The position numbers and the translations under genes are program-made. Positions 12,569 to 57,276 of a stretch of DNA of 64,000 nt are shown here, in pieces. How positions within the stretch are numbered: position 1 is the stretch's first letter; each line of letters begins with the position of its first letter. The DNA comes from Halichondria panicea. Lineage: Eukaryota > Porifera > Demospongiae > Suberitida > Halichondriidae. Location of the stretch: assembly GCF_963675165.1 (NCBI RefSeq), contig NC_087386.1:4408169-4472168 (forward strand), in the 5' to 3' direction. Under the pieces are notes generated by a model that saw nothing but the letters and a program-made list of their open reading frames with translations, was not told where the DNA came from and ran no database searches.

Positions 12569-13118
12569 GCTTGTACAGTGCATGGCATAGCTGGTGATAA
12601 TTATATCCATCTGGAATGACTCTCTGGGCATATGCTGTTTGTCTGATTATGCTGAGAGAATGTGAGACAAAGATTAGGTCTTTTTGTTCCGCAGTTATTC
12701 TTGATCAATATGATTGTTTTTGTACTGAATCTGTAAAATATGAACTGTAACATAATAGAGTTGCCTTGCTTGCTCACTTTCTAGCTATAGCTTACGAGTC
12801 AGGTCTCATCACAGAGACATCCAGTTACTGGGTTGGGCTCGAAAATGACTGCATTTTAGGCGCACTCTCAAATATAAGCGTATATATATAGAGCTCTGCT
12901 ATTGACCCCATGCATGAGCTGCATGCGCTAATAATCCAGTTTCTTGTTTTTGGTATTGTTTTTGGTATGTTCTCTTTATGGCCATTCCTATAATTATTAT
13001 AGCAACTCAATTTTACATGGGTCATAATTATTTAGTGCATGCATGCATGTATCATTGTCCATTGTACCACCCTCTTTCTCTAGGTTTTGTTCAGACCATT
13101 AACTGTACTGCACTCCCA
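12569..13118. promoter_or_regulatory. Upstream region of the 2A/Death/Roco gene
   Basis: The region is non-coding apart from an open frame running into the first exon from 12978. A TATATATATA run at 12881-12890 is a possible core-promoter element. A possible 3' splice site TTTCTCTAG ends at 13083, so an upstream 5' UTR exon cannot be excluded. Confidence 0.25.
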
Positions 13119-16100
13119 ATGGAACAATATTTGTCTAAACTCTTCTCTGATCACAAGGAGAAAAAAACATGCTTTCGAATAGAGTTGAGAAAATATCGTA
13201 ACAGTAACAAACGTTGTTCAACAGATACAACCTGGATAACCGGTTTGGACAAGACACCACAAATATTGGAGGTGGATTTTTTGTTGCTGATTATAGCTGG
13301 AGATATCGAAACTAACCCTGGCCCTGTTCTTACAACACTGACACTCTCAACTCTTCATGAAGAATTAGTTGAGTTGACTAATCCACTTCTTTTTGGTAAA
13401 CACTTGGGCATTCCTCAGTTGGTATTGGACAAACTTCATCCAAATGGTATGTGCTATAATTATGCATGCACGCATTAAGTTAATGCACCTTCTCTCTAAT
13501 TATAGTAGCATATGCATGTGAGTCAGTGATAGAATGCAATTTCAGTGAATTGATGGTCGATCATTACCCACTCTTTGTGATCTGGATTCTGCCTGCATGC
13601 AGCAAAATTAATCAATGCAAACATGTTCATCATTATCTATGATGCACTTGTCAGTGAGTAGTTGGGTCCACTTAGTTGAGGGAACCCTATAATTAAGGGT
13701 GCACATACAGTGCATCCAGTCTAGAGAGTTGAATACCACAAATGTATGAGTACAGTTGTACGGTATAGACTCTAGTTAATCCGGTCACCGTTGGGACAGT
13801 ACAGCTTGGTCAGAATAGCGAGGTGGCCCCAGGAAATAACCGCGGCTAAAAAACCGACCTTACCTCGAATATAAATTTTATGCGGTTCTGCCTCGAGGAT
13901 AATTATGGTCTCAAGTGTAATCCATTGCCAAACCATACCCAAAACGTCATATCCGGCCATTATAAAATTACATGAAAACCTTGTTTGGGGCAGCCAGCAC
14001 TGACCAGTATATGGAAAAGCGAGTGGCCGCATTTCAGGATGAGTGTTGTGCAGTAAACATCTAGCTAGTATACTATTCTGTGCCAAATCAAATGGCCGAT
14101 ATATCGAGGTGGCCGTACGTACTTCAGAGAGCCGAAATAGCGACAGTCTACTGTTCTTAAAAGATTGGAATATTTCTAAGAAATTATGCTGACACCATTG
14201 TGTACGTGAATGAATAAGATACAACATTATTAAACAAAAATCTATTGTGGGAAATAATGGTGAAAGCGGGGGTGATCATATAGAAAATAATGTGTGTAAC
14301 ATCGATTATCTTCGGAAAACTAAAGTCTTTCTTTTCTGATTAAAAGTTAGACAATTATTTTATTTCAAGCTTACTATATGTGTAGCAGTGGCGGATCCAG
14401 GGGGAGATCCCAGGGTGCTCCTTTCAGTCTAGATATTGTGGCTTTACTACAGCCTACCAGCTAGTTATTTATCAGTTTTTGTAGCTATTGTCAATGATTG
14501 TACCTGTTGTTTTGATGTATCAACTGCCAAAGGAGTGTTCAGGTTAGCCTATAGGCTAGATAGTTGACTGTTTGTAGTTGGACTCCGCCCAATTAGACTG
14601 TTCGTGGCAGCTAGCTAGCTCTACGCAAGTCTATTATGGGACTTCCCCTGTGATTTTCCCTAGTCATGTGTGACCGGAAGTGGACGTAATCCCAAAAAAT
14701 TTTGCTCTGTGCGGGAATTCCACTACGCGCTCGTAGTTTGGAACCGCCCTTTCATTTTTCCTGGATCCGCCACTGTGTAGATACGTAAGCAATATCAAAC
14801 CTTGCGTAAAATAGCCAAAGTTCTATAGATGTTGTGACGAAGTCCTAAACCTTAGCCGGAATCTGTTGGTCTTTCCTCTCCCTAACCGATTAGCCATTAT
14901 TTGTAACAATTGTTTACTGTTCTATTATCACCACAAACCCACCATGCAACTTTCGTTGCTATGGAAACATTTTTAGTAGCTTATTCATTCACCTCAGAGG
15001 AGGAACGCCAGGGTCAATAGGGTCACGTTTAATTAAGGATTATTGTTCTGGGTTCTTGACCTTTGTTGCATATATATAGCAGCTTAGCGCTTCTGTTCTT
15101 TATTTGCCTGCTTGGAAAGCTTACTATACCTAGATCTATCCAGTGCAGCAAGCCAGTATACATCAAAATTTATACCCTAGCCACGGAAGGCTAATTTCCA
15201 TATCTTGTGGTTTTGAAGAATACAATAAAAGGTCAAAGGTTGCAATTAAATCCTAGATCTCCTCTCTCAAGCTGATTCCTCTGGGGCGCGATAGCTCAAC
15301 CGATTTCTGTTGTTATTATAAAGAGGATCAAGCTATTGGTGGTGTATAAACTCAGGGGCGTGAGGGTAAACTCAGTTTTACATGTAAAACATAGGGCCAC
15401 GTGGTGTTTTAATTAGTGACCTTTTGACCCTGGCATTCCTCCTCTGCATTCACCTATACAAAATGGCAGCACCATTTCTTAGAAATGTTCCAATCAAAAG
15501 ATATTAACATTTAAGTACAACTATACTCACACGTTTGTGGTGTTCTACTCTCTAGACTGGATCATGATGCACTAATGATTCTGTTTCCATCTGAACCCAT
15601 TGCCCTACCCCACTGACCCACAGACATTTGCCATCGATTGGTATAATTATAGGCAGCGACTGATCTGTATCAATAACAAAAACAAGCATCTTCCCATCAT
15701 GTCTATAAATTAATGCTTCTCTCCTAATTTCATGCAGACGTCAGTGAACAGAAAAATACCCTGCTTCAGTACATTGCTAATAACTATGAACTATACGGAT
15801 TTGATTGGGAGAAAATCGCTGATGCTCTTGATATAATTTTATTGAGAGACCTGGCCACAAAGCTGAGGTCTAAATATTGTCAACATGGTAATGATTTGTT
15901 ATGGCTATGTGATGATAAAGTTATTACATGATTGATTTCCAAATTATCTACCGGTATGTCATTGTAGATCATTCATCTTCGAGTGATGAGTATCTTTCAG
16001 CAGAAGAGCCCCCTTCAAGTGATGAGCATCATTCAGCAGAAGAGCCCCCACCGGTGCAATTATGTGAGTTTCTAATGCGCATAGTAATCATTTGTGATAT

Positions 16101-19100
16101 GTACTACCGTTCAATCATTTGTGATGTACTACCAACGGTATAGTACATATCACAAATGATTACTACTGTATACTCTTCCGAGATTACGCCCACCCCCACT
16201 TTTGAGAGAAAGTTTCTGCATTGGCTAATTTGCCTTGAGAATATGCCCACCAGAAAGTGATGCATTTATTTTGTCAGTGAGAGCAGAAAATGTTTAGCAG
16301 TTTATTGATTATAGCTCAGACAATTGTCTTGTGTGGTCGACAAAATCTAGCCCTTCGTGATCATCGTGACAGTGGTACAGATGCATGTAGAAGGTGCACA
16401 GTCGGCAAGCACAAACCATGGCAACTTTAGGGCCTTGATAAACTTACAAATTATCAGCTGGAGACACCACCCGTAGAGAACATCTCGAGAAGGCAGGTAG
16501 GAATGCCACTTAGATACATACCCTGACATACAAAACCAGATCATCAGTATCCTTGGTGACCAAATCTGTGAGAAGATTTTAAGGAAGGTTCGTAGCAGTG
16601 CCTGATAGCAGATGAGGTCACTGATTGCTCCAACAGAGAACAACTCTGGCCTGAGGTATGTTGAGCCAGGGTCTTGTTTACAATTTAACCTGGTTCACAT
16701 GGAAACCTCTATAAGAACAAAAACACAAAACTTACAAGAAGTTGACTGCCAGAGAGATTGTTCAGACTCTTTGAAAGCTTCGATCTGGGAGGCTTTGATT
16801 TCTATGATAAATTAAACATACCATGTAGATTACACCAATCCATTGTGACATACCGTAAACATCCATTAGCACGAGTATGTTGGTCATCTATCTATATAGA
16901 TCTACTCCTCTATACAGAAGTGCTTGCGCCCCAGACGATCCTGCTTGAGAGAAGCAACATTTGATGCATTTTTCAAACAAATTAGCCGCTAAAGGGTATG
17001 CATTTTGTGTACTAGCTGCTTTGCTGCCTGCATAGTATTATAGGTATATATATCAACTTTCCAAAGGCAAATAAACAATCAAAAACGGTAGCTGCTAGAT
17101 GAAAAAATACGATGCGCAGGAGTTAAGAATGTAAGACAACAATTTGGTTCATTAAAAGTGTCCCTATTGATTCCAGTGTACCTCTTCTGGGATGCAGTGA
17201 GAACAAGAACTAACAAAACACAACACAGTCCATGCAGTTAGGCTGAGGAGTTGGCAGTGTTCATCTTAATGTATCGTTGTGTTGCCACAAGCTAGTGCAT
17301 GCATGTGTGGAGATCAGTGTTTTGAGCAGAGTGAGGTATAATTATATATTGCAAATGTACAATTGTATACTGCGCCATCATCTAAACCTGTTCATATTTG
17401 TATAGCAGTGCAGACTGTTTTTTCTTCTGATACTCTAGAGCGATAGAAAGCAAGCACACACTGTATATACGTATATATAGCTTTCAGTTTCAAAACTGTT
17501 GTTGGTTGTCACTCTACTAGATCTTCTTCAAAAAAGCTGCCTTCTACAAGCTCTACTGATTTTCTATTTGTCTTTTGGCCGTCTTTTTTCTCCTAACTGG
17601 TCCTCGACTTGGAAAAATGTTTTGATGCTACACATCCTTCACATGTCGTCATGTGCAGGTTCAGTGCTGCACATCGGTTACCAACTAATATTATTATGGA
17701 TGGCAAGCACTTGCAGTTACAGTCACAGACTCCCTAGTATCATCATAATAATTAGTGTCAGGCTTTGTAAAACAATTATACATACATGCCTGTATAATAG
17801 CTCTCTCCATCCGGCACACAATAATAATCTGTAGTGCATGCATGCGTGGAACACAAAGCTGCATTGCTATAATTTATATTCTTTTGATCATAAACTTGTT
17901 TATAGATCTCTATTACCAACTGTACAGCCCTGACACCATCATCTCAAGTACAAACTCGAAAATATTATCTACGAAATGTCTCAATATTGCTGAACCACGA
18001 ATATTATGTCCTCCGAAAATTACCCGCTATATGTTTTTTTGCAATGATTATAATTAATGGTTTTATGATTAAGGGGATATAAATTATTAATTTAATAATA
18101 ATCAGGCTCAGCCATGAACCACCTCAATACTAATTAAGAATGCATGGTTTTATTTCCTAAGGTTTACTGCATGCATGGCTTTCGAATGTTTTAAGAGAGC
18201 CATTTAATTTATCATAGTTTACAAATTATAGGCTGCAGTGTATCATCATGCATGCATGAAGCTGTATATATACTTTTCAATTATACATGCAGCTGATCTG
18301 CCGAGAGTAGGACTTCAAGAACGGTTTCTAGTGCCAGACCCTGTTCCATCTCAGCAGCCTACCGAGGGTTCTCTAGTACCAACTAGGACTTCATTATCAG
18401 TAGCACTGGGTCCTCCTGGACCCTCACCAAGTATACCACCACTAGTAAATGAAAAAGGTGACTGTAATTTATATCGGCTTGAGAATACACAGTTTCAATA
18501 CTTATAATTGTACTGTATATTTGATTATTTATACATAGTTAGATGTATACATGCAGGTCAGAATCTTCACTGCAATATAAAAAAAAAAAAAAAAAATTCT
18601 AACAAAATTACATTATAATGCTAGTTAAATATGGCCTTCAGTTGGTTTTATATACTCAATTGTGTTACTCTACTACCGGAAAAATGTTATCAATTAGGCG
18701 AATTTATATAGGTGAGGTTTGCCAATTTATAAAGCGCAATGTCCTGGTAATGCGCACACATGCACACGCATGCATATACCATAGTTGCCCATGCACGTAC
18801 CTGATTTGCACAGTTGCAGGTGTGACACAGACAGAGGAGCTCTATGGATTCCTTTGAGTTTGAGAGCTGCTAGCACGCCTAGAGTATAGATGGAGTAGTA
18901 TAGGATGATCATTGATCTGCATGCAGAAAAGACATGCATACTGAAACTCAATTGAATTATGCATTCGCACCTATAATGCACATTATGTAACCTCAATATT
19001 GCCACTTTTCTGTGTCAAATTAGCAATAATAATTATAATTATTGTGTTTTTTTTCTGTGCAGGTATTATTATGCTAATGAAAAGACACAATGTTACTGAT

Positions 19101-22100
19101 AAGCAACTCAACACTGAATTACGGGAAGCTGATTTTTCCCACTTGGCTAAATATTTTGATAGGATTGAGCTCTATGTTTACGAGATGGATTTGACTCCTT
19201 CTGAACAAGGCGATGTGACACTGAAGGGAAATCACAACATTCAAGATGCAATGATTATGTGCTTGTCTTACTGGCGAAGACACAATCCTTCGAAAGCGAC
19301 ATACAAATCTCTGTTGAAGATCTTAGTGAGTCTTGACCAAGGATTGATAGCTGATAACGTGTGTCAGTACTTGGCGCAGAAAAATGGTGAGTATTACACT
19401 ATTTATAGCAAGTGTTCACTTAATTGAGTCTCATTCACACGCACATGCAGATTAATGTTAATAGTGCTTGTTAATCCTAGCTGCAAGAGTGAGAAGAGAG
19501 TTGCAAGGCAGGCTCTACTGTACTGATGCAGGAGCCATTACTATGATTTTATCTTGTAAACTTTGTACTTTTGTCAGCATCAATCATGGGCGATCATTTC
19601 CCACTCTTTGAGTTTCCCTGTGATTATATTATATGCAGCAAAATTACCTTACGAACATTATGATATCTATGTGTATTAGCCAAGGGCGTAGCCAGGGGGG
19701 TGCTAGGGGTGCTCGAGCACCCCCAACCAGCCTGAGTCAAGTATACAAATCACAGAAAAATGTATCTGATTACGGTATCCAACTGAGCACCCCTTCTCTT
19801 CCAGTTCTTGCTGCAGTTAGGCTGTTAGCTAACTAGTATAATATTATAGGCAAGGAAAACGATTCAGTCTCTAAATTGTGAGCTATTCTGGCTTAAATCG
19901 TTCTCTTTTGTGATCGTGGCCAGCTTCTCTATGCAAATAAGCGTTCAGCCACGCCCAACTTGGGAGATAAGTTAATTATGACGTCATTAATAAGAGGTGT
20001 CACCCAAATTTCGGCACTGCGCGGCGCTAAAAATTGGGCGCTTTGCGCCCTCTTTCATCTATGATAGCTCTCCAAAATCCTGGCTACGCCGCTGGTCAGT
20101 CATACAGTAACCACATTGCACAAAATGAATCATTTCTGACACAATGCTATTTTTTGTTTCTATAGAAGACCAGCCAACAAAACCCAAAGGTGAAGAGTAC
20201 TATGCACCCACTTGGTACACAAATTCTGCAATCACAATCATAATAATTATAGTCTGAATAGTTTGTTTATGAAAACTTATTTTTTATCTTCACAGTTACG
20301 CCTGAAACAACTGTAGCTCAGTTGAACCAACAGTGTTCTAATGACGCTCTTCTCCAGTTGTCTGCCAAGATTGTAGCCTCGATCCCAGGCCGAGTTTTCG
20401 CTTTTATAACGGTTAGGCGAACAACTGGGCCTGGTACTAGTTGTCTGCGCATGCGTCAAATTTTCATTGTATATTTGTGGTCGGCAAAAATATTTAATAA
20501 ATCAATAATAGAAATTTGTACACAGAAAATGCACAGAGTGAGTACACAAAAGATGCACATAGGGAGCTGCTTCACAAAGGCCTGGGGAGTTGCCAGTTGT
20601 GCTGCAGCACAATTACAGTGACCCAGGGCAACTTCAGGATGATTGAATGCCTTCAAATTACGTTTCAAAAAGATTTAGCAGGCTGCTGGACTTCTCTGAT
20701 TCTAGGCCCCAACTCGTAAACTCATTGCTTGAGAAAACGTAGATTCTCTTGATGTCTCTGAGCTACCCAGCAACGCTCGAATGAGCAGGTCATACTCCAG
20801 TCCTGTGTCTGTGAGTATAGGACAATATTAAAAGAAACCAAAGACGGTTAAACCCTTACCTCAAACTGTCCAGTCTCGTCCGTTAGTATAGCCAAGAGGA
20901 GTACTGTTGGGACAGCTGGATATTAGCCATTGCTCCTGTACAGAGAAGTAGACATTTTAAATACGTGTAGAAATTTCTCGGTTATAGTGTCATTGTCGAC
21001 GAGCTGATGATGGCAGCACCAAGTTCTCTAGCTCACACTCTTCACTTGATCCACCATATTAATGATGAAACTATAGTCTACCTACATTCTTGCCAAACAT
21101 GAACAAGACTTGATAGCATAGCCGGCCATAGGGCCCACACAAAAATATCTGACCTTAACAAGCTTGACAAAGCTTTATACCTCTTCCCTTGTTGTTCAGT
21201 CTTCAGAATAAGCTTCAGAGAAGAGAGAAGCTTCAGCTAAGAGCCATTCCAATCGATTCCAATCGATTCCAATAATGATAAAACGGGAACTGACTTCTAG
21301 TACACGATAGTACACGAATATAAATGTCACAAAAGTGAACGAGAATATCCATTCGTCAGAATCTGACGAACGACTGACGCATGCGCAGACAACTAGTACC
21401 AGGCCCAGTTGTTCGCCTAACCGTTATAAAAGCGAAAACTCGGCCTGGGATCGAGGCTACCAAGATTGCTGACTATAATGGTTTCAAAGTCAGGCTGGGC
21501 CTCAGTGATGCTGAAATTAACGCTATTGATCTGACAATTAGTGATATTCCAGGAAGGTTTTACGCTGCTCTGAAAAAGTGGAAGAGTAAAGGCATGTTTG
21601 ATTCGACAGCTACTTATGGTCGATTAGTGGAAATCGCTAGGATATTGGAGGATGGAGAGGCATTTCAGAGTATTAAACGTGCCTGTATTGAGCATACAAG
21701 TAAGTTGTATTGTACCTATAAAAGTTTGAGTTCACACTCAAACATTAAATAAACTGTACATTCTAGAGGAATAAACTTTTTGCTATAATAATTATTATAG
21801 GCCGCTGAGAGGGTATATACTTGAGGTAACAAGACATGCAGCGGACATAATTTTAACTATTATATTATTTTGCATGCTCTTCATATTTTTTCTAGTTAGT
21901 ATAAAAAAAATTATGTAACTGGACTGACTGTGTACTGACTGTATTGTAGTTATTATGCCTCGAGGCGTAGCCGCACGAGGGATACGGTAAAGCTGTCTGT
22001 GTGTCTGTCTGTGTGTCTGTGTGTCTGTGTGTCTGTTCCAGCTGTAACTGCTCAACGGTTGCAATGCGACGAAAACTAACAGCTTCTATAGGCTTCTAGC

Positions 22101-25100: not shown

Positions 25101-28100
25101 AATTTCTTTTCGTTTTTGCTGACTCAGCAGTAGAACATGACTGGATCTAGGCGGATCTAGCTAGTATGGGTATTATGTGCTGATAGGGTTAGGTCCAGTA
25201 ACCATCACAGACACCAAACACAACTAGTTGTCAACAGAATCAGTGACAGAAACCGTGCATAAATATTGTCTCATGAATCAGTCGCCCTCTATAACATAGA
25301 CTCGCCATTAGGCCGCCCAACTTTTAGAGGGCAGCTGAAATAGAGACTAGAGCAGAAGTACAGTAGACGCTACTGCTGAGTCAACAAAAACGAAAAGCAA
25401 TTTGGTCATTAAAAGGTCATAATTAGTGAAAGTTCAAGTGATGTTCGACCTCCTCTGCTTCTTCTTATAGCCTCGATCCCAGGCCGAGTTTTCGCTTTTA
25501 TAACGGTTAGGCAAACGTAGCTTCTTCTAAAACATCAGGCCTCACCCAACTAAATAGAGAAGTCAATTATGACGTCATAATTAAGAGGCGTGGCTTCCGG
25601 TCAAAATTTCGGCACTGCGCAGCTGATAAGTTTTGCCCTCTCTTCCAAAAAATCCTGGCTACGCTCCTGTTAGCAATAGCTAGTATAGCTTTATGTTATC
25701 TAGCTTTTTGACACATCCACCGAGGCATCAGCACTTTCATTATACAAGAGGAGCTGAAAAGGCTGCAAGGCATTCCAAGTAAGCAAAGCATTATTTTGCA
25801 AATCCACGGTATGACTAGAAGCATATGAAACTTTTACTTGCACTTCATTGACCCTTGAGCAGCTATAGCAGTATACACAGACACAGACACACACACACAC
25901 ACACACGCACACACACACTACTGTATATACCTCGCTTGTACATGCACACCAAGGCGTAATAAACTCATTGAAGAGTAAACTAAGTAGGATAAAAGCTGAC
26001 TTTCTGGACATGAGTAATTGATTAGGAGGTCTGGCTTCCGGTTAACCCCCTAAAAATACGCGCCACAGGGAGTTCTGCACCCTTTAACTAATTAAGGATT
26101 ATTTTCGGATGCGTGGTAGAAATTTTTGTATCAATAGCTGGAGTACCTACAAAAAGAACTTTTCAATGTCACTATCCTGAGAAATATCGTAGTTCGTACG
26201 AAAATTTGTACTAACAATGCATGTTATCTTTACCAATCACATCAATTATCAGCGCATCCATGCACTTTATACATACATTTAATTTATGCAGTCCCTAAAC
26301 AAGAAAGTCCATCTCTTACAACAGCTGAAAGGCCAAATTTGTGCCAATCATCGGATTTTAATATGAAGCGAACGTATGTGTGTTTTGCTTGTGGCTGTGA
26401 TTGCTGCTGTTTACTGGATCGTGTACTAGGGAAAAAATGCCCTAATCAAAAACAGTATCCATTTCCTAAAATTGGTTTGAGTCAAGAGTTGTCTGACGAT
26501 GTGATGTGTGATTTAAACGAATTTAAAGAATCTCTACTGAACCAATCAAGAAGAATTCATGGTATGTTTCTTGAATTAATGACCCACACATTCGAAACTC
26601 TAAAGAAGAAGAAAGTGGATATTGAAAAGGTGAAGTATTATCTGAGATCACTATTTCCCCTTGATTGGCGTTTTCTGGCTATACTCTCTCAGGAAGAAGT
26701 AAATCTATCGGGTGATTTCAACTCTGTGCAAGATTTCTATAAACTTAGTTATTTTTTGCAAGAAAGATACTGTACTTGGTACAACTATGATTTGATAGCA
26801 CGGCTGCGGAAAAAATTTCTTTATCGTTGGAGGAAAGATTCGAAATTAGAGAATTATGAGAGTTCGTTTAAAGATATTGTCTATCGTAGATGTTTTCTTT
26901 ATTTAGACAACGGTGGTAAAACCCCCAAATATCAGACCGAAGTTGTTTGTAAGATTGATATTGATTATAAAGAATTATCACAGCCACTAATTGAACACTT
27001 AACGAGTGTGTTTGCCAACGCTATTGGTTTGGGTAAGTATCATTTGGTTTTCAAAAAAGTTATAGAAGGTTGTACTGAACTAGTGTTTCGAGCACCTCAA
27101 TACATCATGAAGCTAAAGAAATTATCACCGTATCAGGTGCGTAGCTTAAGAGAACATAACATTATTGCAGTCAGAATCAGTGATCGGTACCTCTTTAGAC
27201 ATGATCATGGCTTACTCAGCGCTTGTGAAAAAAACTTGGAACTTTTAGACAAGGTTAAAGTTGATGTATCTCCTTGCACACTGTGGACGGGTTTGCATAA
27301 TGGTCAACCATGCACTGTTTTAAAGTATGAGGCAAAAGAAACCAAATCAAGCTACACTGAGTACACTCACTACATTCTGGAAAACAAACACGAGCATGTA
27401 GTGAAAGCCGATTGCATACATTTGGATGACGAGCTTTCACATAATCCAATAATTGTACTTAGACAAGTACATTTGCAGACAATCAATGGTTATCTTTCTT
27501 CAACTCGTAGTGTCTTGTCTGAAATAGAACAGCTTTCATTTTTATTGGACATTGCTAAGGGCTTTGCTAGTCTACAGAAGGATACTTCTGCCTATTTCAG
27601 AGGAACTGAAAACTCAGTTTTTATACACGTTGAAGAAAGTATTGGCAACTTAATTGCACAGTTTTTCCCTGTGTATAAGCAATCATACTTTCCACGTGCT
27701 CAGGAGTACGCAGCCGCAGTATCTTCAGCAGATTTGATATGGCTTAGAAGAACAACAATTTTGTTAGATCGTGAAAGCAATGATGAAAAATCGGAGCTAC
27801 CCGAGAGTCATGTACTATACAACATTTTTAAGCACAAGTGGTTGTCAGATGATGAGCGTTTACGCCCTCGTGATGTATCACAAGTTGCTAAAGAGGTTGA
27901 ATACATTCGAGGTAAGTCAGCAATATTCAAGAATATTGTTCACATAATTATAACTATGTAATTTTCTCACCGTAGATTTGGAGAAGACAAGGCTAGAAAT
28001 GATTGATGTAGTAAGCAACTCGGAGTTTCAGGAAGTATCACATTTGAATATGATCCTTATCGGGCACACTGGAGTCGGAAAGACCTCAATTCGAAAGCAT

Positions 28101-31100
28101 CTACAAAACCTTTTATTTGCCAAGAATGAAACCAGTACTATCCTATTTGAACATGAGCTTCTATTTGTACAAACAGTTGAATTGTTGCCTGATACCAATA
28201 TCCCAGTTTTCCAACGTAATGATGCAGTATACAGTAGTGAGAAGGATAAGGTGTTTCTTACTTTGTGGGACACAGGGGGCCAGCCAATGTTTCAGGATCT
28301 TCTTCCTTGCTTCGCTAAATTCAGATCCATTTATGGCGTTGTGTTTCGTATCAGTGATTTTTCGAATGATTCTAACGCTGTTACAAGACCCACTTGTCCA
28401 CTTGAGAGCGAAAGTGAATCTCCATATACTTGCAAAGAGTACATTAAACGATGCCTTGCTTTTTTGGAGTTCTTTGCATTTGATATGAATCAAAGGTTTA
28501 TTCAACTACCTAATGAAGTAAAAAATGCATTGTTTCAAAATGCTGCTGATGATATAAGCCTTTTTCCTAAAGTCGCTTTAATTGGAACTTTTAAGGACAA
28601 GATGATGCAAGACAATGCCGTAAGGGGAAAGTACAATGATTTCAAGAAAAATTTGCTTCAAACTAATTTTGTTGAAAGGTCCCTTTGCCCAAGCTATGAT
28701 GACACTGTGTTTGAAGTAGACAACACTAAATCAGGAGATTCCTGTGAAGACCCTGGTATTAAAGATTTACGTGAGAAGATAATCACGGAAACGCAGCTCA
28801 CAAAGACAAAGATACCTTTGAAATGGATTGCATACAAACTTGACTTGGAAAATGAATCACGATTACAACGGCCCTGCACAGGCATTGTAACCCTTAGTAA
28901 AGCTAACGAAATAGCAAAGAAGCAGCAAATCAGCTCAAGTGCAGCTCTAAGTTATTTTCATGAACTAGGAATATTTCTGTGGTACCGTGAGACAGAATCT
29001 CTAAACAGTTATGTAATTGTGGAATCAAGACATCTGCTATCTATTCTAGGCACTCTTCTTAACCCAAAAACATTCATTAGTTTCCCTGGTGAATGGAAAA
29101 ACCTTCAGGAACATGGCATACTGAATAATGATGTCGGTTTTACGCTTCTTGACGAGACTATGAGCAGGACAGGGGTTGATCGTGAATGGATTTTTAGCTT
29201 TTTTAGAGAGCACCACCTAATAATGAACTTGTCAGCTGAAGGCTACTTCATTCCCTCTCTACTTCAAGTACTCCCGATTTGTTCAAATCCTTTCCACATT
29301 TGTGATGCAATTTGTTCTATGTGCACCCTCCTCCCACAAGCCAAAGATATGGAAGTAGCCCCATTATTTTTAGTGCCTAAGTGTAAGTGCATACCACCTG
29401 GCTTTTTCCCTCGACTAATGACAATGCTTGCTGGAATTCAAGACGGCGAGATAATTTGGAAGATATCAGTAAGCACGATGAGCTGCAAAAACGTGGTTTC
29501 ATTTATTGTAGGTGGTAACGCTTTCCTTGTTTTCACTGAATTCATTGATTGTATTCGAATCTACTGTACTTCTGTTTCTAGTGCAAGCATTTCCCAATTG
29601 CTGTGTAGAGGCATCTTGCGTCAAATAAGAGCCCAAATTGAGCGGCTCTTTTTGGAGAGTAGTAGCCTTCCAATCATAATTACATTCGCTTGTCCTTGCT
29701 CCAAGTCCCTTCATTTTTTACCTTCTGTGCTGGCTAACTCGCATGATAAAGTGATTTGTACTGAGCACCCAGGATATGTTTTTGAACCTTGTGAAAGTCA
29801 TCTGAAGTGGCTACAAAAGAAAATTACTTCAGATAGAGGTAAGTTTAAAATGTATACATGCAACAGAAATGTACATTCCTCATGTGCAGATGCTGAAGAA
29901 CAGCTCAAAATTGCCCTGGAAGAAGGAGGAGTGGACGTACTTGTATCAACAGTGCTGTTTGTGGGATCTAACTTTTCTGATCAGATTGTAATGGATGACA
30001 GAGAATCTGGTTCGACAAGTATTTCCAGGTTTTTCATTCTAGAAGACAACAACTTAAAATTATTACAATCTGAAGTTGTAGAAGCATTTTTAGCGAGTAA
30101 CGCAGCCGAGTTAAAGCAAAAGTTTCCGAGTGATCAAGATAGTTCATGTGATCCACCCAAGACTGAAGCCTCTGCAAATTATATATCAGAATCGAAAGAT
30201 TACTTGCCCAAGGCTGAAACGTCTGCAAATGATTTATCAGAATCGAACAATTTTTTGCCCAAGGCTGAAACGTCTGCAAAGGATTTATCAGAATTGAAAG
30301 ATTTCTTACCGCACAAACAACACAGTCCACTTAAGTCTTATGCTGTCAATGAACCACAGCAAATTGCTGGAGATGATGAACATCATATTACAAAACGCGA
30401 GGAACATAGCTCACCTGCATCTACATCTATGCATATCCCAACTGATCAGCTAACACATAATAAAAGTCGCATAGTCACATTAATGCAAGGTGCTAGTGAT
30501 GAGCTACAAAGTCTCCATTTAATGAATGCAATAGAGTGTAAGCATTCTCTTATCTTAACAATTTTACCATTGCTTACTCCGCAACTATCATCTTTCGGTA
30601 TTCTTGATGTTCAGTTCACAGCGGAGATGCTTGAAAAATTTCCAGATATTTCTGAAAAATGGATAGTAATAGCTCCATCATTGATGAAGACTTTAAAAAA
30701 TGAAATTGATCTCGTAGAAAACAGTCCACATAGGCATAAATTTGCTTTAAATTTTTCTGGTGGAGTTCTTTTTTCTAGTCATGAAGAAGTTTTAAAAGTG
30801 TTGAGGACTTTGCGTAGCATGAACAAAGAACAGATTCCCTATTCTTGGTTTTATCTCTGGAGTTTTGTTAAAAACACACTTCAACTAAACAATTCAAAAA
30901 TAATTACTCTTGATACTGTTATTCGCATTTCAGACACTTGTGGTATCGAGTCTGGTCAGCAGCTACAGGACGCTCTTGCATATCTACATAAATGTGGTCT
31001 GCTAATCTACTTTAAAGATATTCTCCCCAATGTTATTTTTGAAGATGTCTCCTTGCTCATGTCTTTAATGATTTCTTTGCTCAAAAACATTAAATATACT

Positions 31101-34100
31101 GGGCTACTTACAGATACTGACTTTCATGCTGTTCAAAATGTTTATGATAGTATTTTTACATATGATAATGTTTTAAAGCTACTCAAAGGGTTATGCTTAC
31201 TCTCTCAAATTAGCTCGCATCAGTTCTTAATGCCATGTGTTCTCACAACGTCTCTAAGCCCTCAAGATTTGAGTATCTATTGCAAAGGACCTTGTCTTGT
31301 AGTTCAACACCCAATGGCTACCAACGTTTTTGGATTTTTGATCTGCTTTGTAACGTCTCAAGAAAGCAGCGACTTCTGGCCATGGAAAATACTCACAAAT
31401 CCGAATACGGGAGATCCAGTTTGCATATTTTCAAACTGTGCACAGTTTTCTCTGCCTGGATATGATTGTATGATAACATTGTTTGCATCTAACTCATGTG
31501 TTAGGATTTATACTGAGTACAAGAATTATCAACCACCTTTGTTTCTGATCAAGACAGCTGTGATTCGTGGGATTGAAAAAGCATGCAAATGTTATCAATT
31601 GGAATCGCTGGCTTGTGATGTTGGGTTTAATTGCATTTGTGGTTCCACAGACATTGAGCATAATATGATTTGGCTTGAACAAAGTTTGATATGTTCTTTC
31701 AACTCGGAGCAGACTTTTAAGCTGTCACAATCACAGCAACGCTGGTTTGATGAAGGTATGTAAGTATACATTACACCATGCAAGTGTATTATGCCTCGGT
31801 GTGCATGCGCAAGCGAGGTATACTGTGCATGTTTGTGCATGTGTGTGTCTGTGTGTGTGTGTGTTTGTCTGTTTGTAGATTGCTCTAGGGATCAATGAAA
31901 TGCAAGTAAGAGTTTCTATAATTATAGGCTTCTAGTCATGTTTTCAATTCGTGGATTTGCAAAATAATGCTTTGTTCCACCAAGTTATGCCTATAGTTTT
32001 ATTTACTTGGAATGTGATTGCAGCGTTTTCAGAAGAGTGCGTAGCAAATCTTGTCCATGGAGTGTTGCTACTCTACTTAGTCTGCACTAGAATGCTAGCG
32101 ATTAGTATGGCTGCAAGAGTGAGAAGAGAGCTGCAAACTCCGTTGATGCAGCAGTCATTAATTTAGAATTGGACTTTTGGCATCGATCGTTTTTACAATC
32201 ACGTCGATCATTTCCCACTCTTCGAGTTTCCCTGTGCATGCAGCAAAATTAAAATGTTCATCATGATTAGTGTTTGTATAAGCTATTGCTAATAGCTATA
32301 GATCTAGTTAGCCTCTATACAGGCTCTCCTTTTTCTCTTTTTCTGTTCTTTATCACAATCGTTCAATAAGATAAAATACTGTATTAATCGTTCAATGAGA
32401 TAAAATACGGTATTAATTGGAGGAATAAAGAAAGAAATAGACGTAGAGTTAGAAAAAAGGATAGTCTGTATCGGGAAGTCGCGTGAGGGTAGAAGGGTGA
32501 AAATAAGCGTTGGCATGCTGAGCTAGAGATGTTGGGCTGCCCACGCAGAGATCTATGACTAATAAAGCAGCAAGCTGGACATGGACTTGGAACTGGAAGT
32601 TTGCAAGCACTATAGCTAGCTATACCTTAGGCTTAGCTATGATCTACTAGTCTAGATTGAATTTGCAATTGTTTGTTCAGATTCTATCAGACTATCACCT
32701 TTTCTTGTGTGTTTCTACATGCTATATAGTCTATAGTTAGATCAAGAATAGCTTATAGTCATCATTATCATATAGCAGGTACGTAGCTACTGCCACCAGA
32801 GCTGGCCACGCTGGTTCTCTGATCTGACTTGCAGCACAGCTTGGTGTTGTCTCAGTACAACTCTGAATACGTGGGAGAATACCTTACGTTACGGTTATGG
32901 GCTGCATATCGCCCACGTTCATAAAAATCCTCGCGATTTCCCAAACCAGGCCTTACTTTTTCTTAACTCTACGCCCATTTCTTTCTTTACTGCCTCACTA
33001 TGTCTTTCTTATGATTTATGGATGAACAGTGACAACAGCAAGAAAAAGTAAGGCCTGGGAACGAGGCTAAGAGATCTAGTTATTATAGCTTTATGTTATG
33101 TTAGCTTTGACACCTCCACCGAGGCATCAGCATCTGCGGTGGGTGCTTTCATTATACTGGCATTTGAATACCAACTTTGTATTACAGGTATTTCTTCAGA
33201 TGATGATTCCATAACAGTAAACAGAATTTTTAGAAAGTTCTTAGCTCGGTCTGAAGTGTGGTATGAAGTAGGAATGGAACTTGGTCTTGACACTCCAACA
33301 CTGTCACGAATATCATTGAGGTACCAGAATAACCCGGATCTTGCCTTAATGGAAGCTGTCCGACAGTGGTTCAAGAAAACTGATAACCCACAACTTCTCG
33401 ATGCATCTCTTGGACTTGAACAAGGTATGAATTGTGCATGTATATTAAGTATCTATAGTCATTATGGTATCATACTGCATGGCAAGACTCTTTGGTTTCT
33501 GTGCAAGTTCCTCGCATGACCGTACATTATATAATAATAGGAGTGTATGAAGAGGAGTATCCAACTGTAGCAGTTGTAGTGTAAACCATGTTGCGGTACA
33601 AGTATGTCATACCACGTCACTACCAGACCGCATCTTAAGTGGATGCGTAGGTGTAGTGGTTAATTAGTTAAAAATGATATCAGCACACACACGTGTGGTT
33701 TGTACCTCCAGCCCACGTTTAATTTTATTCATGGCTAACAGTTTACACAACTACAAGTGTTAGTGACGGATTTAGTCTGAGATTTAGAATAGAATGTGTG
33801 TGAGAGTCGCATACTCCTCTTCATACACTCTTGATAATAAATTAAAGACAACTTGGATGAAGTTGATTGCAGAAACTTTGTTTTTTGAGCAAGCTGTTCA
33901 GCATCAACGTAACAAGCTAAAATAATAACAAGTATCTCGTTGCATGCCAATTTGGTAAAAAAATATCAGGGACAAAACTTTGGGCGTTTCCCTGCGTGGT
34001 TCTTTCAGTGCAAGGACAACTTATTATTATGCCTCTTGTGGTCATCCCTGCAGTAGTATCACTCCTCACAGTGCCCAGCTCTCAAACGTGCACCATGCAC

Positions 34101-43164: not shown

Positions 43165-43758
43165 TCTGCTTTTGGGACCCCTACCCTCCCAGCCAATAAC
43201 TCATTTGGTTCCTTTTATAGGCTACTACCTGTTGCACTAATTATGGTAAGAATTTATTACGAATTCACTAAAATTCACACAAAACACATGTCCTACAATT
43301 AATAGGGAACAACTTGACCAATCAGAAGAGTTTGACGTCATTGGGCAACAAGTTAGTTATTGCAGGCGCCCTGCGGCAATAACTTATACATGTATATATA
43401 GTCGTGTGATTTGTATATAGGCATGCTGTACATAATTATAGTTACATACCATAAGTGGGTTTTTCGTATGGTGGATATTTTCCCATTTTTCGTATTGTAG
43501 AGCATCATACGAAAGTTAATTTAACATCACTATCGTAATCCCGAGTTGTACGATACTGGGCAGGATATACGAAAATTTACAGCAAAGAAAATAACCTTTA
43601 TATAACAAACATAGCATGTAATGATCAGTTTATCATGCACATGTATCGTTCTCTTTCGTTGGTGTGTGACATCATAATAATAACAGCCATGTTGACAGTT
43701 CTGAAGTATTACATAATTATACTAACACCACTGGCGCATATACACACATCCTGTTTAG

Positions 43759-46557
43759 AATCGAAGCGGTTGTTTGATGAGGCAATGAAGCATGGACACG
43801 TCTTGGTCAACATTGTCAACATGCTTGTGTTTGGACCGGCGGGAACAGGAAAGACCAACCTCAAGTGCCTGCTAACTGACAAGCCCCCTCCACTACAGCG
43901 AGACAGCACTCCTTGTATGGAAAAGCCAGTACGCATTCGACCAGTGTCCAACACGAAATTCAAGTCAACTGGAAGGGGCTGGGAAGAGATGTCTCAGCCA
44001 AAGTTGCTCAAACTACTAGCTCAAATCATCTCCAAGTTACCAAAAGAAAGTACTGATCAATCCACGGCCTCAAGGGTTGCGGAGAGCTTGAAAAGAATGA
44101 CCACAATAACAGAGTCAGGTTTAACTTCTGATAATGTTAAGTCAATTGATGAGTCCATATTGTCTTACTACAATCCAAGCGACACAAAATCTGATGAGAT
44201 TACCACAATAACTACTTTTTCTGATATGAACCTGTCAGCCAAAGAAGAGCCTCCATACTCGGGAAGAATGTTGGACAAAGCCATCGATGATTTGATAGCC
44301 AGTGTAGTGAGTGGTGTTGCAGAACAGCTGAAGCTAGCCACACAGGGAACTGATCAACTGTTGAGCAGAGACCAGCAAGAAGGAGAACTGTTTGATTCCA
44401 ACTGGGTATATGTTACTGATTCCGGAGGCCAACCTCAATTTCATGACATCAGTCCTCTCTTTATCAAGCACATTTCGGTGGCGTTGGTAGTGCTGCGTTT
44501 GACTGACAAACTATCCAGTTTCTCTTCTGACGAGTACTACAAGGATGGGCAGCTGGTTGGTAGTCCCCATGCATCTCACATGACCCTCGGGGAGACACTT
44601 CAGAGTATCGTTCGATCTATTGAGTCCCATACCTCACAAGACAGGAAGCCAAAGATGATCTTTGTGGGCACATTCTTGGATCAGCTGAGGAGCTCGGATA
44701 CACTTATCAAGAGGAATAAAGAAATTCTCGACATGCTGCCACCCGATATCAGGAAGCTATTGGTGTACAGAGATTTTGGATTAAACGATTTGATTTTTGG
44801 TCTCAACACAATCAGCCGAGAGGAGGATTCACTGACCACTGCCAATAGGATTAGAATTGCTATTGAGCGCTCTATTCCGCTACAAGTCAAAATGCCCATC
44901 TGGTGGTCCTTCTTGGATTCACTTCTCCAGAGTTTATCTGCCACTCTCGAGCGAGGTGTACTAAGCATTGAAGAATGTCTTCGATTAGCCACTCGATTTG
45001 GTTATGTGCTCCAAGATCTTCAAGCTGCTCTGGTCTTCTTTGACAACGTGTGTATAGCGCACTACTATCCCTCCATTCTCCCCAACACAGTGTTTGTGGA
45101 TGCCCAGATTCCACTAGACAAGATCACCGAGCTCTCACAGCACGCCATCTCCCTGAGGAATGCTGAAGTCAAATCACGCTCTACTCTAAACACAGCAATG
45201 ATCGAGGTTGAATGGAAGAGATTTCGAGACGAGGGTATAATCACTTTAGGGTTCCTACGCTTCTTCAAGAAGCATTACGTTGAAGGCATCTTTTCTCCAG
45301 AAGATATGCTGTTGATCATGAAAGATCTTCTCGTGGTTGCTCCCATTGCACTAGTGGAAGCCACTCCCCACCAAGCCGAGTTCTTCATGCCATCTCTACT
45401 CACATCGATCCAACCTGCTGAGTTAGACAAAATTCGTTCCTCCTTCACAATAGCACCCCTTGCTGTCTACTTTCGTAGTGGGTGTATTCGCTCTGGAGTC
45501 TTTTGCTGTCTAGTTGTGGACGTAATCAAGAGGCTGGGCTGGAAAGTTTTGCTCCCTTCAGGCGAAACAAGCATTTTTGCTAAAAATTGTATCCAGTACG
45601 AAATCTCTGATCTCCCGTGTACCGTGACTCTGATCGACTCCTTCTCATATATGGAAGTGTATATCGACGTCCCTGTTTCTCTTCGCAATGAAGTATGCCC
45701 TATGATTCGAAACGAAATTTTGCACAGTATTAAATTGTCCTGTGCAGTGTTGCATTATGACAACGACACACCCAAGACAGCCATCTTTTGCCCATGCAAG
45801 AAGAGCACTGGAAAATTGCACCTTGCTGATGTGATCGAACGGAGTGGCTGTAAGTTTTGGAAGTGCTCCCTTCAGACACGTGTGTGGGGAGAGCTCAGTG
45901 ATGAACATAGAATCTGGCTGGACAATAGCGAAGGTTCTGGTGAGTACAGTCGTTTTTTAAAATTGAAAGTTATCTTTTTGTTTTCCCCCTCAATTAGGTG
46001 AATCATCCTCTGTTACGGGAGACATGTGTACAAAGATGACATTGAGTGATCAGCAGCAACAATCTGGTAAGTACATGACATACATTGCTTTACTATCACT
46101 GATTAGATTACGATACTGAATAGTCATACTGTTTTTGCCTTCATGTAAATTGCAACTATAATTAAAGTTTATCGAAAGTTCTGGTAGGTGCAGTGTTCAG
46201 CAATATTTTGTTTCCCTTTGTTATAGGTGAAGCCTCCTCTGTTACGAGAGATATGGATACTAAAGGAAAGAGACATCAGCTGCAATACTCCGGTAGTTAT
46301 GTAGCACTATACGTAAATATTTGCAGCTTTTATCATAGGAAAATTATATGTACTACATAGTAACAAATTATTTGCGTATCATATTTTTGTAATTGACCTT
46401 TGTATTATCCCCCTCAGGTCCATCGTCCCCTGTAATGGAACCTGTGTGTAGAATGAGTGATCAATATACCAGTAAGGAATGTCTGTTGGGGTTCCATGTA
46501 TAGTGGATAAGTTATTTTACTTGGTCATTATGTGCAAGCGAGGTATATACGTACGGT

Positions 46558-46613
<56 letters not shown>

Positions 46614-48914
46614 TGTGTGTGTGTAGACTGCTACAGCTGCTCAAGGATCGATCCAGTGCAAGTAACAGTTTCTATAGTCATGCTCTCTTGGATTTAAATT
46701 CATGGATTTGCAAAATACTGCTTCGTTCTCGAATTATGCCTAGTTTTGCTTACTTGGAATACGATCGCAGCCTTTTCAGAAGAGCACGTATAGCCAAACT
46801 TGTTCACCGAGTGTTGCTACTCTACTTAGTAGTTAGCTTGCACTAGAACGCTAGCTATTGGTAGCTGCAAGAGTGAGAAGAGAGCTGCAAGGCTCTGCTG
46901 ATGCTGCCATTAATCTTATACTTGAACAATCGTAGTCGATGATTACCCATGCACTCTTTGAGTTTCCCTGTGATTTTGGACTCTGCTCAGGATTCTGCCT
47001 GCATGCAGCAAATTCATTAATGCTATTAGCAGCTTTATGTTATGTAGCGTTGGCACCTAGCTCCACCGAGGCATCAGCACCCGCGGTGCTTTCATTACTG
47101 TAACAATTATTATAATTATGTTTCCCTTCAATTATTAGGAAAACCATCGTCTGCTACGGGAGATACTCTTATGAAGACTGAGAGAAAGAGTGATCAGCAG
47201 CAATACTCTGGTATATGTAGCCCCTTTATCTGTAAACTTACTACAGAAATTTGAAAGCTATAATATTATAGAAGCTATTAATATTTCAGAAGTTATCACT
47301 CTAACCAAAAGTATACCTAGAAACCAGTAAATCATGAATTATATACACTGTGGACATTTGTAGACCCATAAAGGATACCTAAACCATTTAACTTATGAAG
47401 TCTGAGACCTTAGCTGTTTAAGGTTAGTCGATTATACCCACTATAACAATTTGCTGTTGTTTTTATTAATCCCCCCAAACCCACCACCTTGTGTTTCCAT
47501 AGAAACATTTTTGTAGCTTGGTCATTCACCTACACAATGGTATCAGCACCATTTCTTAGAAAGGTTTCAATCAAAAGATAATTATCAACATTAATTTAAG
47601 TACAGCCACTCACACAGTTGTGGTAACCACTCTCTATATGCTGCATGGTTGCTGCACTGTAATTGTAAGCGCCAACTCAGACTTAACAGTGTCCTAAAAA
47701 ATCTCCATTGGTTGCTGTTATGTCGCTTATAATATATAGTATTATATATGTCGCGAATAATTACTTTTTGACCCAATATTTTTACTTTCGTTATATTTTT
47801 TCTTTTCTTCAGGTGAATTGTCCTCTGTTACAGTAATGGAAGATGTGTGTTAGAAGACTGGAGTGAGGGACCAACAACTCAATCAAGAAATCCCTGAGAG
47901 TGACATCATTCTAATCGCGCAGAAATTTCCTCACCTGCTGAACGTGCACAAGGTAGGCAGTACTCTAAATCTTATATCTACTTATCCTCCTGACATTTTG
48001 GCAAGGGGAGCAAATGGTGCACGTGCATGATATTAGGGGGTTGATGACATGTATATATCTAGAGGGTTCGTGACCCCCAGGAATTCATTACTATATCTGC
48101 CCTGTTAAGAATATTGTTCACCAGAACCCCTCAATTGCCATTGAGTTTCCTCTAGAAGATATTTCCGAGGGGGAAACCCCACCAAATGAAACCCTGTTGA
48201 TTGTTGTTTTTGTACAGGCTTTGACCATCAACGATCTACAACATGTTTACAAGAAACTACATGAAAGTGCCAGCCCTCACTGGTTCAATCTGGGATTGGC
48301 TTTAGGTCTAACTCATCTTGTTCTCACCAACATCGATAGCAAGCATCGTGGAAATAATGTGTCATGCTTGCGTGAAATGTTGGCCAGGCTCCTGAGTACA
48401 CAACATGTAACATGGAGTCTCCTGTCAGACGCTCTCAAAAAGCCCACAGTGGATCTTATCAATTTGGCTGACAGCATCACAGGTAACTATTTGTGCATTT
48501 TTTTATATTCGCCATTTTAGTGAATGATATAAACTGTCAAGAAAATTGTAGGTAACTATTTTCAGTGTGCATTTTTTTTTGTTCGCCTGTGTGTCATTTT
48601 TAGAGCTTAATAGACTGTCACGAAAATTGTAAATTGTTATTTTAGTGATGTCTTTATTTCTTCATTCAGCCAATCAATCCACAACTCCTAACCTGCTTGA
48701 TCGACTCAATCTCACATCAGCCGACCTTGGTGATGTAACTGATGTCACACGTCGTTATGGCAATCAAGCTGGAGTGGCTCATGCATTGATAGTGTGGCAA
48801 AGAGTGAATCCTTCCAGAGCTACCTTCAGGGCCTTGGTGGAAATTGCCCTAGGACTGAGAAGAGGAGACATTGCTACAGACATCTGTAGGTTCATTGTAG
48901 AAAATGGCGGTTAG
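43759..48914 (+). CDS. Roco-like GTPase / Death-domain protein, paralogue of gene 1, with in-frame stop
   Basis: Exons: 43759-45939, 45998-46066, 46227-46292, 46418-46471, 47139-47210, 47813-47952, 48218-48482 and 48670-48914 (stop TAG 48912). The upstream limit is uncertain: an open frame runs from ATG 43635, but a splice-like CTGTTTAG precedes 43759. GTPase motifs: GPAGTGKT (43833-43856), DSGGQPQFHDI (about 44417) and VGTFLDQL in place of NKxD. A COR-like module then ends in CPCKKS and WLDN. Linker exons and two Death-like exons follow. In exon 47813-47952 codon 47851-47853 is TAG, where gene 1 reads an amino acid. Translation would stop before the Death domains unless this is read through, edited or an assembly error. 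Confidence 0.7.
45998..47210 (+). repeat. Four tandem linker exons (gene 43759 copy)
   Basis: Exons of 69, 66, 54 and 72 bp (45998-46066, 46227-46292, 46418-46471, 47139-47210) all sit between phase-1 introns. They encode variants of a unit beginning E-S-S-S-V-T-G/R-D and ending S-D-Q-Q-Q-Y-S. The intron before the fourth carries the dispersed repeat of 46530-47020. Confidence 0.65.
46530..47020. repeat. Dispersed repeat with GT microsatellite
   Basis: GCAAGCGAGGTATATAC is followed by a GT tract (about 46561-46625) and a block matching 31860-32250. It is an intronic, non-coding copy of the GCCTCGGTG family. Confidence 0.65.
47440..47640. repeat. Paralogous segment that is the empty site for the 14995 element
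   Basis: This stretch matches 14925-15545 on both sides of the transposon (CCCACCA, GAAACATTTTT, CATTCACCTA, GGTATCAGCACCATTTCTTAG). It has only one CATTCACCT and no element. Confidence 0.8.
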
Positions 48915-49690: not shown

Positions 49691-55833
<6,143 letters not shown>

Positions 55834-57276
55834 GCATGGAAGGTAAATTAATGGTAGTTTATTATATTAATTTATAAGGTAAAGATGGTTCAAATAAAAA
55901 CATAATTATTAACTTTTTTGTTGAGTTGTGCAGGGAAATCCCTAGCCACAATAGAAACATGTTTGACAGGTTTTTGGCCATTTTATAGATCACCATCAAA
56001 TCCGCCATGCATTTTTCGGGCTGATTAATACTTCAGTAAGCAAGCACGATAGCAAAGGCTTGATGAATGAGTGAAGCAAGCATTGACTTGGATATTCAGT
56101 GATCATGTACGGGTGTGCATCTACAAAGAGGTGAGGGTTGATCAAACCAAACGTTGGTACGTACGTCTAGTATAGTCTAGTAGCAAGCTAGCTAGCTATG
56201 GAGCTCGTAGCTGTCTTATGGTGGGTTTATAACAAGATGTACTGAATGTGTACTGTTGGCTCTTCCATGGTAACAGATCTATCAACTGCCCTTAGCTGTA
56301 TTATGTCATGATTATGTTAACATGAATAAAGTGACACCAACATTATGACAAAGCAAATTATTTTCCCAACATGAGATCATCATACGGGTACCCTGTCTTA
56401 AAAGTACACTCTGTGATTCCCAGTGCTCATAGTTATTGACTGCAGTTGTAGTCTGTGCAGCCGTCCCTAGCTACCGTGTAGCCCTTGTTTGTAGTATTTG
56501 CAGTACGTGTCACCGTTTGACTGAGAAGTTGTACCAATCTTATTAAGAGCGATTCGCAGCTTGTTGCATGTGAGTATAATGGTTGTGTGTAGTGTAGGTG
56601 TTAACGATACTGTCATAACATCCATTGATATCACTCCCTTGCTATGAAGATTCTTTTGTCTCCTGATCTTTGTCCGATTAGATCCTTTTGACACCACCTG
56701 CATACAAAGAGCAAGCCTTCTTTGTTGTGTCTTTATTATGTGTGAACTTTGAAATTTTTGGAAGCTAGTGACGTATTGCTGACATGTTAGCAGTTAAGTT
56801 AGCAAAACTTGACTAACTAGTTTCTGTGCATGATGTCAATTGCATTCATTGTGTTGATGTCATGGTTGTTATGTAATTCTCATCCGTTATTCATAGTGGA
56901 AGTGATAAGTATCATGTCCGTAGGTATGTTAAATCTGCATACAATTACGTTTCATCTCTCCCCACACGCACACAGGTGTGTCTACCTATCGTCTGCAGTT
57001 TTCTTGCGGATTAGATAGCTACTATCTCGTGATTTCCCCTTCCCCTACTTGTATCAAGTCACTATTTCACAACCCTACCCTACGCACAAAACGAAAAAAA
57101 CACATTTTTATCTATATAGTATTTCTATTTTGAAACGTCTGTTGATCGTTTGTCTTTGGTCGCAGTTAGTATGAACTAACATTCGTCATTGAGTGTACCT
57201 GAAGATTTCGTCTCTTTAAGTGTCTCTACAGTTGTTCTGAATTCATCTTCCGACAAAATCACACACATCACCGCCA
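55834..57276. promoter_or_regulatory. Head-to-head JMJD4 / Roquin intergenic region
   Basis: 1443 bp separate the two start codons of divergently transcribed genes, so both promoters should lie here. No clear TATA box or repeat family stands out. An open frame at 56467-56703 (-) has no recognised domain. Confidence 0.45.

Follow-up and report, generated by a model that had tools for sequence, protein, structure and literature searches.

A 2A-like peptide behind the leader of a tandemly duplicated Death/Roco-type gene and in several other gene architectures of one animal genome

Odon and co-workers reportedly described 2A sequences in APE-type non-LTR retrotransposons in 2013. Roco kinases of the DAPK1 type are built in the order kinase, Roc, COR and Death. 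For the StopGo/2A sequences of RNA viruses, a recent study states that the L-rich upstream classes end in (A/S/C)G before the Asp of the core, that one of them, motif 6, is active in vitro and that activity varies with the upstream context (Li et al. 2026, PMC12846837). Among sea-urchin NLRs, 85 of 241 were found with a 2A-like sequence at or near the N-terminus, and a later count gave 14 of 87. The sea-urchin 2A peptide comprises 26 residues, 12 of 14 were predicted to be signal sequences, and the authors report both skipping and signal function for the sequences that they tested (Roulston et al. 2016, PMC4981915). In the sponge Amphimedon, proteins with Death and TRADD-N domains and variable C-termini are expanded (PMC8195603); the term 2A-like is absent from that paper.

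The stretch of DNA analyzed here as a whole, termed the window, comprises 64,000 nucleotides (contig C10, positions 4408169–4472168) of a genome that measures 131 Mb in 39 contigs. As in the sea-urchin genes, a 2A-like sequence lies near the N-terminus of a Death-domain gene of immune type, with the start codon in the window being a candidate. In the sea urchin, the hosts are NACHT-LRR genes with a short, signal-like leader, whereas the window gene encodes Roc and COR-A and has a longer leader that is not signal-like; unlike in the sea urchin, 2A sequences of the studied genome also precede NACHT, ankyrin, sacsin-like and GTPase-type ORFs. With the viral sequences, the window shares the core D(V/I)ExNPGP, preceded by an L-rich hexapeptide that ends in (A/S/C)G, but the viral elements separate parts of a polyprotein, while the window 2A follows the leader of a cellular gene. 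The 2A sequences of APE-type retrotransposons have the same motif, and such ORFs are present in the studied genome; however, no PHD, endonuclease or reverse transcriptase (RT) domain lies beside the window exon, which is spliced to Death exons. The Amphimedon proteins resemble the window gene in having one to three Death-like domains, a TRADD-N-like region and a variable part, but in the window the TRADD-N match is weak and Roc-COR forms the variable part. The order kinase-like, Roc, COR and possibly Death is that of the DAPK1 type, from which the window gene differs in its weak kinase-like part and in its additional N-terminal Death domains and 2A leader. Among the matches listed, no report described 2A sequences in a Roco gene, in a sponge or spread over several receptor architectures within the same genome, with the survey of eukaryotic and viral 2As by Rao et al. 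2025 lying outside the comparison. As far as the literature was searched, both a host gene of the Death/kinase-like/Roco type and the occurrence of 2A in several architectures are new. The term undescribed system, used in the earlier note, was too strong, since N-terminal 2A sequences on sea-urchin NLR genes have been published (PMC4981915).

The peptide GDIETNPGP was placed by translation at residues 61–69 (13299–13325, plus strand), in frame with ATG 13119 and directly preceded by LLLIIA, as had been noted before. Its core octapeptide DIETNPGP (13302–13325, plus strand; motif as defined in PMC12846837 and PMC4981915) has the form of the StopGo/2A core (D/G/C/N)(V/I)ExNPGP. The preceding hexapeptide LLIIAG matches, by eye, the L-rich classes 2 and 6 in PMC12846837. 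The bond predicted to be skipped lies between Gly68 (codon end at 13322) and Pro69 on the plus strand. When all six frames were scanned, D(V/I)ExNPGP occurred only once in the window. The strict motif was counted 116 times in the whole genome, the reversed pattern was not found at all, and 0.09 occurrences per genome (4e-5 per window) were expected from base composition. Thus, a chance origin of the motif was rejected.

Exon 1 as known extends from 13119 to 13446 on the plus strand and encodes the leader, the 2A and the first half of a Death domain; it ends with AATG/GTATGT, i.e., with the donor G/GTATGT in phase 1. Residues 1–47 of the leader (13119–13259, plus strand) are not reliably alignable between lineages. 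The start codon is a candidate only, and an upstream exon is possible, because an acceptor-like site (ctctttctctag) upstream of ATG 13119 ends at 13083. The 2A block, residues 48–69 (QILEVDFLLLIIAG-DIETNPGP; 13260–13325, plus strand), showed the lowest dN/dS of exon 1. The first half of the Death domain (13326–13446, plus strand) is continued, after an intron of 2,291 bases, by exon 2 (15738–15887, plus strand; borders read from the sequence). Exon 3 (15968–16063, plus strand) encodes an acidic/serine-rich linker (..EYLSAEE..) and exon 4 (19063–19386, plus strand) a second Death-type domain with a Pfam Death E-value of 0.0033, under the cut-off; both are kept in paralogs. Exon 5 (21409–21699, plus strand) encodes a Death domain (Pfam E-value 5.7e-6, match 21378–21752), and its 5' border at 21409 is proposed only, since it sits in a repeat. 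Exons 1–3 have GT/AG borders in phase 1, the junctions of exons 1–4 are in phase 1 with the frame kept, and exon 5 can be joined in frame at 21409. The gene model comprises exons 1–5 up to 21699 and resumes at ORF 26138, with the stretch between left out. The repeat overlapping the start of the Death exon (21378–21470; also 20360–20455, minus strand) recurs in loci L045 and L047, and a mobile element may be the source of the exon 5 border.

For the domain encoded by exons 1 and 2, Pfam gave no match. A profile of the spliced post-2A region from the five sequences of the family returned chains of the Fas death domain as the three best PDB matches (E-values of 0.018, 0.022 and 0.076), followed by two unrelated matches (0.59 and 1.4). 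The same domain, interrupted at the same residue, was also found in genes on contig C13, where an array of NACHT genes occupies the same regions. Taken together, the part after the 2A and exon 2 therefore plausibly encode a Death domain split over two exons, in agreement with the earlier note. Downstream, a region common to other 2A genes (26690–27217, plus strand) is weakly TRADD-N-like; TRADD-N (PF20694) was matched in two of five aligned members (best E-value 0.00088), the window member not being among the two. The adjoining kinase-like region (27200–27911, plus strand) is possibly a pseudokinase. Its Pfam matches, with E-values of 0.0033 for a sub-region and 0.013 for a longer region, are both under the cut-off, and no match was obtained against PDB; the pseudokinase part proposed earlier thus stands as a weak kinase-like likeness. 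The Roco core is clear, with Roc (Pfam E-value 1.4e-9) followed by COR-A (1.1e-17) at 27976–31763 (plus strand), and the assignment of the host gene to the Roco type was upheld. A Death-like domain 3' of this core (33052–33516, plus strand) matched profile A4 with an E-value of 1e-8, while Pfam Death was not found in the ORF; it may form the C-terminal end of the Roco gene.

With the whole 109-residue exon as a query, rather than the motif, at least nine places were found in the genome, the window included: four in tandem on C10, of which the window is one, two on C12, one on C6 and two on C10 at about 1.2 Mb. D(V/I)ETNPGP was kept at all nine places (eight were read, the ninth by motif position). 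The tandem copies (C10:4273791, 4324135, 4383805 and 4421470) span about 150 kb and are up to 99.5% identical. Compared to 3.3 kb of the window, two copies showed 99.5% and 99.1% identity over the whole length and the third 89.8% over 969 bases. Intron 1 measures 2.3–2.4 kb in all four, and in two of the tandem copies the Roc or kinase-like ORF carries a stop. The paralog exons are 42–46% identical to the window exon, and the exon-1 donor, the phase and the exon-2 acceptor were kept in each of the four paralogs read (two on C12, one on C6 and one on C10 at 1.2 Mb), with an intron 1 of 48–65 bases. The Roc-COR ORF as a query yielded at least 11 long loci (37 of 209 candidates scored), and in seven of these 11 a 2A exon lies 4–15 kb upstream on the same strand. 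At the other four loci (two on C1, one on C4 and one on C28), the searches yielded neither the exon nor any of the listed motifs, and at one of the C1 loci exon 3 is present, while exons 1 and 2 were searched for and not found. The leader-2A module is thus dispensable, since four of 11 Roco loci are without the exon and the C1 locus retains only exon 3 of exons 1–3. The 2A exons at C12:5109224/5112012 and at C10:1211819/1224148 form pairs, each of which precedes apparently one Roc-COR locus.

Selective constraint was estimated as dN/dS (Nei–Gojobori) between the window lineage and the paralogs. The 2A block (residues 48–69) had values of 0.10–0.27, as compared to 0.51–0.68 for the post-2A part, with up to 0.75 from the tandem copy L004. 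Leader residues 1–47 were mostly saturated between lineages, with values of 0.33 for the window against L004 and 0.41–0.90 among paralogs. When 22 codons were drawn at random from residues 48–109, 124 of 20000 sets had an equally low share of amino-acid changes. Within the core octapeptide, V/I was the sole amino-acid change, next to several synonymous codon changes. Within exon 1, constraint is strongest on the 2A block. For six host sets found through the motif, pooled pN/pS was 0.15–0.72 over the last 18 residues and 0.39–1.31 over the rest, a contrast that is weak evidence, since the last eight residues belong to the search pattern. The C14 set of three sequences showed no contrast (0.36 at the 2A end, 0.39 over the rest), and a like contrast was seen in the retrotransposon set (0.26 versus 0.73).

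The peptide W-R-A-R-I-G opens many 2A leaders of different families on C4, C5, C6, C10–C13 and C15 (e.g., L033:1228 and L052:1192). Its pattern was found at 31 places, and its reversed control at five. A strict 2A lies within 430 bases of 25 of the 31 places. From the six places without 2A, C1:6241435 was dropped as a probable chance match, and the five that were read were all frame-broken and without a strict core. In comparison, all 11 distinct copies with 2A that were read had an open leader frame; these comprise ten of the 25 pattern places and L050, which the pattern missed through one codon.

The positions of 107 of the 116 genomic motif places are known. Contig C14 holds 33 of these, C2 15, C5 12, C10 11, C11 six, C6 five and C1 four; three each lie on C4, C7, C12, C13 and C15, and two each on C3, C16 and C17. 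Loci were read as 38 short and 18 long stretches. Among the long stretches, three belong to the Roco family (L054–L056), in eight the next ORF is Death-like (L041–L045, L050, L052 and L053), in four it is weakly CARD-like (L046, L048, L049 and L051), one is a retrotransposon (L047) and two are of no clear type (L039 and L040). Further downstream, Pfam identified NACHT in L041, L051 and L052, ankyrin in L044, sacsin in L053 and a dynamin-type GTPase in L046, with only a weak P-loop in L049; by eye, L042, L043 and L045 resemble their neighbours. The 2A is followed by retrotransposon domains at four loci, namely PHD and endonuclease in L012 and L014, PHD in L016, and PHD, endonuclease and RT in L047; L028 resembles the 2A retrotransposons by eye. 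A profile was built from 11 Death-like ORFs, namely the eight mentioned, the second domains of L048 and L049, and one window ORF without 2A. Its best matches were death domains, mostly FADD, with E-values from 1.2e-4; one engineered repeat protein was among the matches, and ferritins ranked far lower. Pfam Death matched six of the 11 members. The CARD-like profile (A5) gave weak, mixed matches, and alignment A3 gave a single, unrelated PDB match (E-value 0.48). For 11 of the 102 NACHT matches that were scored (from 265 candidates), a listed 2A lies upstream at a distance of up to 6 kb and in the same orientation, and for none of the 102 does a listed 2A lie downstream or on the opposite strand. 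Thus, the 2A belongs to some families only, since the other 91 are without a listed 2A. Gly precedes the Asp of the core in 44 of 45 distinct contexts, retrotransposons included; the sole exception, L039:1518 (C17:4071217), lies in decayed-looking surroundings. At L040:1183–2031, the 2A sits within a 283-residue ORF with a coiled-coil-like end; this ORF is no clear transposon and no Death gene either. At the Death-sacsin-type locus L053 on C4, the 2A leader is preceded by a run of N, either a gap or a withheld stretch.

In this genome, the leader-2A exon behaves like a module, with a phase-1 donor-like site no more than 11 bases after NPGP in 26 of the 45 distinct contexts. The other 19 contexts comprise six of the Roco family, five retrotransposon-like ones, three of no clear type and five with a less canonical GT by eye (L009, L013, L030, L031 and L046). 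In the C13 genes with the same Death domain, an AG acceptor-like site lies just before the Death exon, at most about three codons from Val70, in each of the five copies read, and none of these contains NPGP in any of six frames. Judged from these sequences, the Roco lineage probably lost the intron between the leader-2A exon and the Death exon, fusing both. The window 2A and the NLR-type 2As on C1 share 85% of the DNA sequence over 47 bases and 82.5% over 40, and a common origin is unproven, because this likeness is too short.

With the motif, frame, splice borders, conservation, recurrence and domain context as observed, exon 1 is likely a real coding exon of a tandemly duplicated Death/kinase-like/Roc-COR gene that bears a working 2A (StopGo). 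During translation, the ribosome would mostly fail to join the bond between Gly68 and Pro69, and the leader ending in ...NPG would be released. Translation would continue into a cytosolic receptor-like protein starting with Pro-Val, followed by the Death domain. The likely purpose would be to free a Death-domain receptor of its leader, while unskipped translation would supply a second form; this form could be membrane-anchored or exported in several other families, and probably not in the window copy. The makeup of the released leader is tentative, since ATG 13119 is a candidate start and residues 1–47 are not reliably alignable with the paralogs.

Dual targeting as in the sea urchin, by which the unskipped leader would act as a signal sequence and one mRNA would yield cytosolic and exported forms, is a rather unlikely account. 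For the window gene, it would require a signal-like leader. It has the sea-urchin precedent (PMC4981915), and in the paralogs on C6, C12 and C10 at 1.2 Mb a possible start Met lies 32 residues ahead of the Pro, followed by basic residues and an L-rich stretch. Leader types on C2, C3, C5 and C15 reach a hydropathy over 19 residues of 2.19–2.92 at or near the 2A, and the C14 leader reaches 1.51 at best. In contrast, the window leader reaches 1.09, as compared to 2.3–2.9 in three other 2A families of the genome, contains an Asp within the hydrophobic run and measures 68 residues from ATG 13119, and the paralogs reach only 1.25–1.71 from the inner Met. Since 2.19–2.92 stands against 1.09, dual targeting is a plausible reading of other families but a weak one of the window copy, where the differently targeted fused form envisaged in the earlier note is weak as well. 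Transmembrane domains have been reported in NLRs of the sponge Dysidea avara, having first been seen in Amphimedon (PMC12909245). It might be speculated that leaders of this kind, as unskipped versions, underlie such sponge transmembrane NLRs.

It is improbable that the motif is kept for another reason, e.g., as a binding or structural motif or as a ribosome-slowing arrest peptide at the start of the Death domain. Conservation alone is no proof of skipping, given that activity depends on the upstream context (PMC12846837), but the sole core change is one that 2A permits, and the Gly before Asp is nearly invariant. That exon 1 is a 5' remnant outside the mRNA, with the gene starting at a downstream exon, is highly improbable: four of 11 Roco loci do without the exon and intron 1 of the tandem copies is long, but donor, acceptor, phase and frame are kept on three contigs, and the paralog intron is short. 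Slighter still is the probability that the motif is an inactive relic left in the exon by an ORF of a retrotransposon or virus, for which the 2A-bearing retrotransposon ORFs put a source at hand, but the whole-exon query matched its own family only, no relative of the exon was found in prokaryotic (162 pattern matches) or viral (52) contigs, the 2A block is constrained, and 2A was lost from W-R-A-R-I-G leaders only in broken copies. By the exon search, Pfam on neighbouring ORFs and the prokaryotic and viral scans, a retrotransposon or viral origin was rejected for the present exon, as distinct from a remote origin. The exon also did not prove to be part of a non-LTR retrotransposon ORF1, a possibility raised at the outset, since Pfam found no PHD/zinc finger, endonuclease or RT in the spliced N-terminal part or the downstream ORFs, and the exon is spliced to the Death exons.

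Beyond the probable 2A activity of exon 1, a shuffled leader-2A exon may tentatively, and with somewhat less than even confidence, be regarded as a layer of translational control general to the innate-immune repertoire of this animal, comprising Death-NACHT, Death-Roco, Death-ankyrin, Death-sacsin-like and CARD-like-GTPase genes. A single skipping event per protein would then decide between a leader-free cytosolic and a leader-bearing form, the latter membrane-linked in several families. The use of 2A in cellular organisms has been called rare or absent (PMC12846837, 2026), a view with which 116 strict motifs in one animal genome contrast. Most long stretches that were read are innate-immune-type host genes of several architectures, and the element is under constraint in the families that were tested without motif bias. 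If skipping were confirmed, immune gene expression in an animal would regularly involve a virus-like recoding device, and its reach across gene families would surprise specialists. It could then be tested why a Death-domain receptor sheds its leader on the ribosome and not by a protease or splicing.

Elsewhere in the window, two Death-like ORFs without 2A (1675–2085 and 48074–48520) are about 70% identical and of the type found after 2A in other families. A large ORF at 43539–46001, which by eye has a GTPase-like P-loop and which partially matches the Roc ORF, is possibly a second Roco-like gene. A long (GA/CT)n microsatellite at 53937–54549 gives false ORFs on both strands. By eye, the ORF at 57241–57603 is of the RING type and that at 62943–63455 of the CCCH zinc-finger type.
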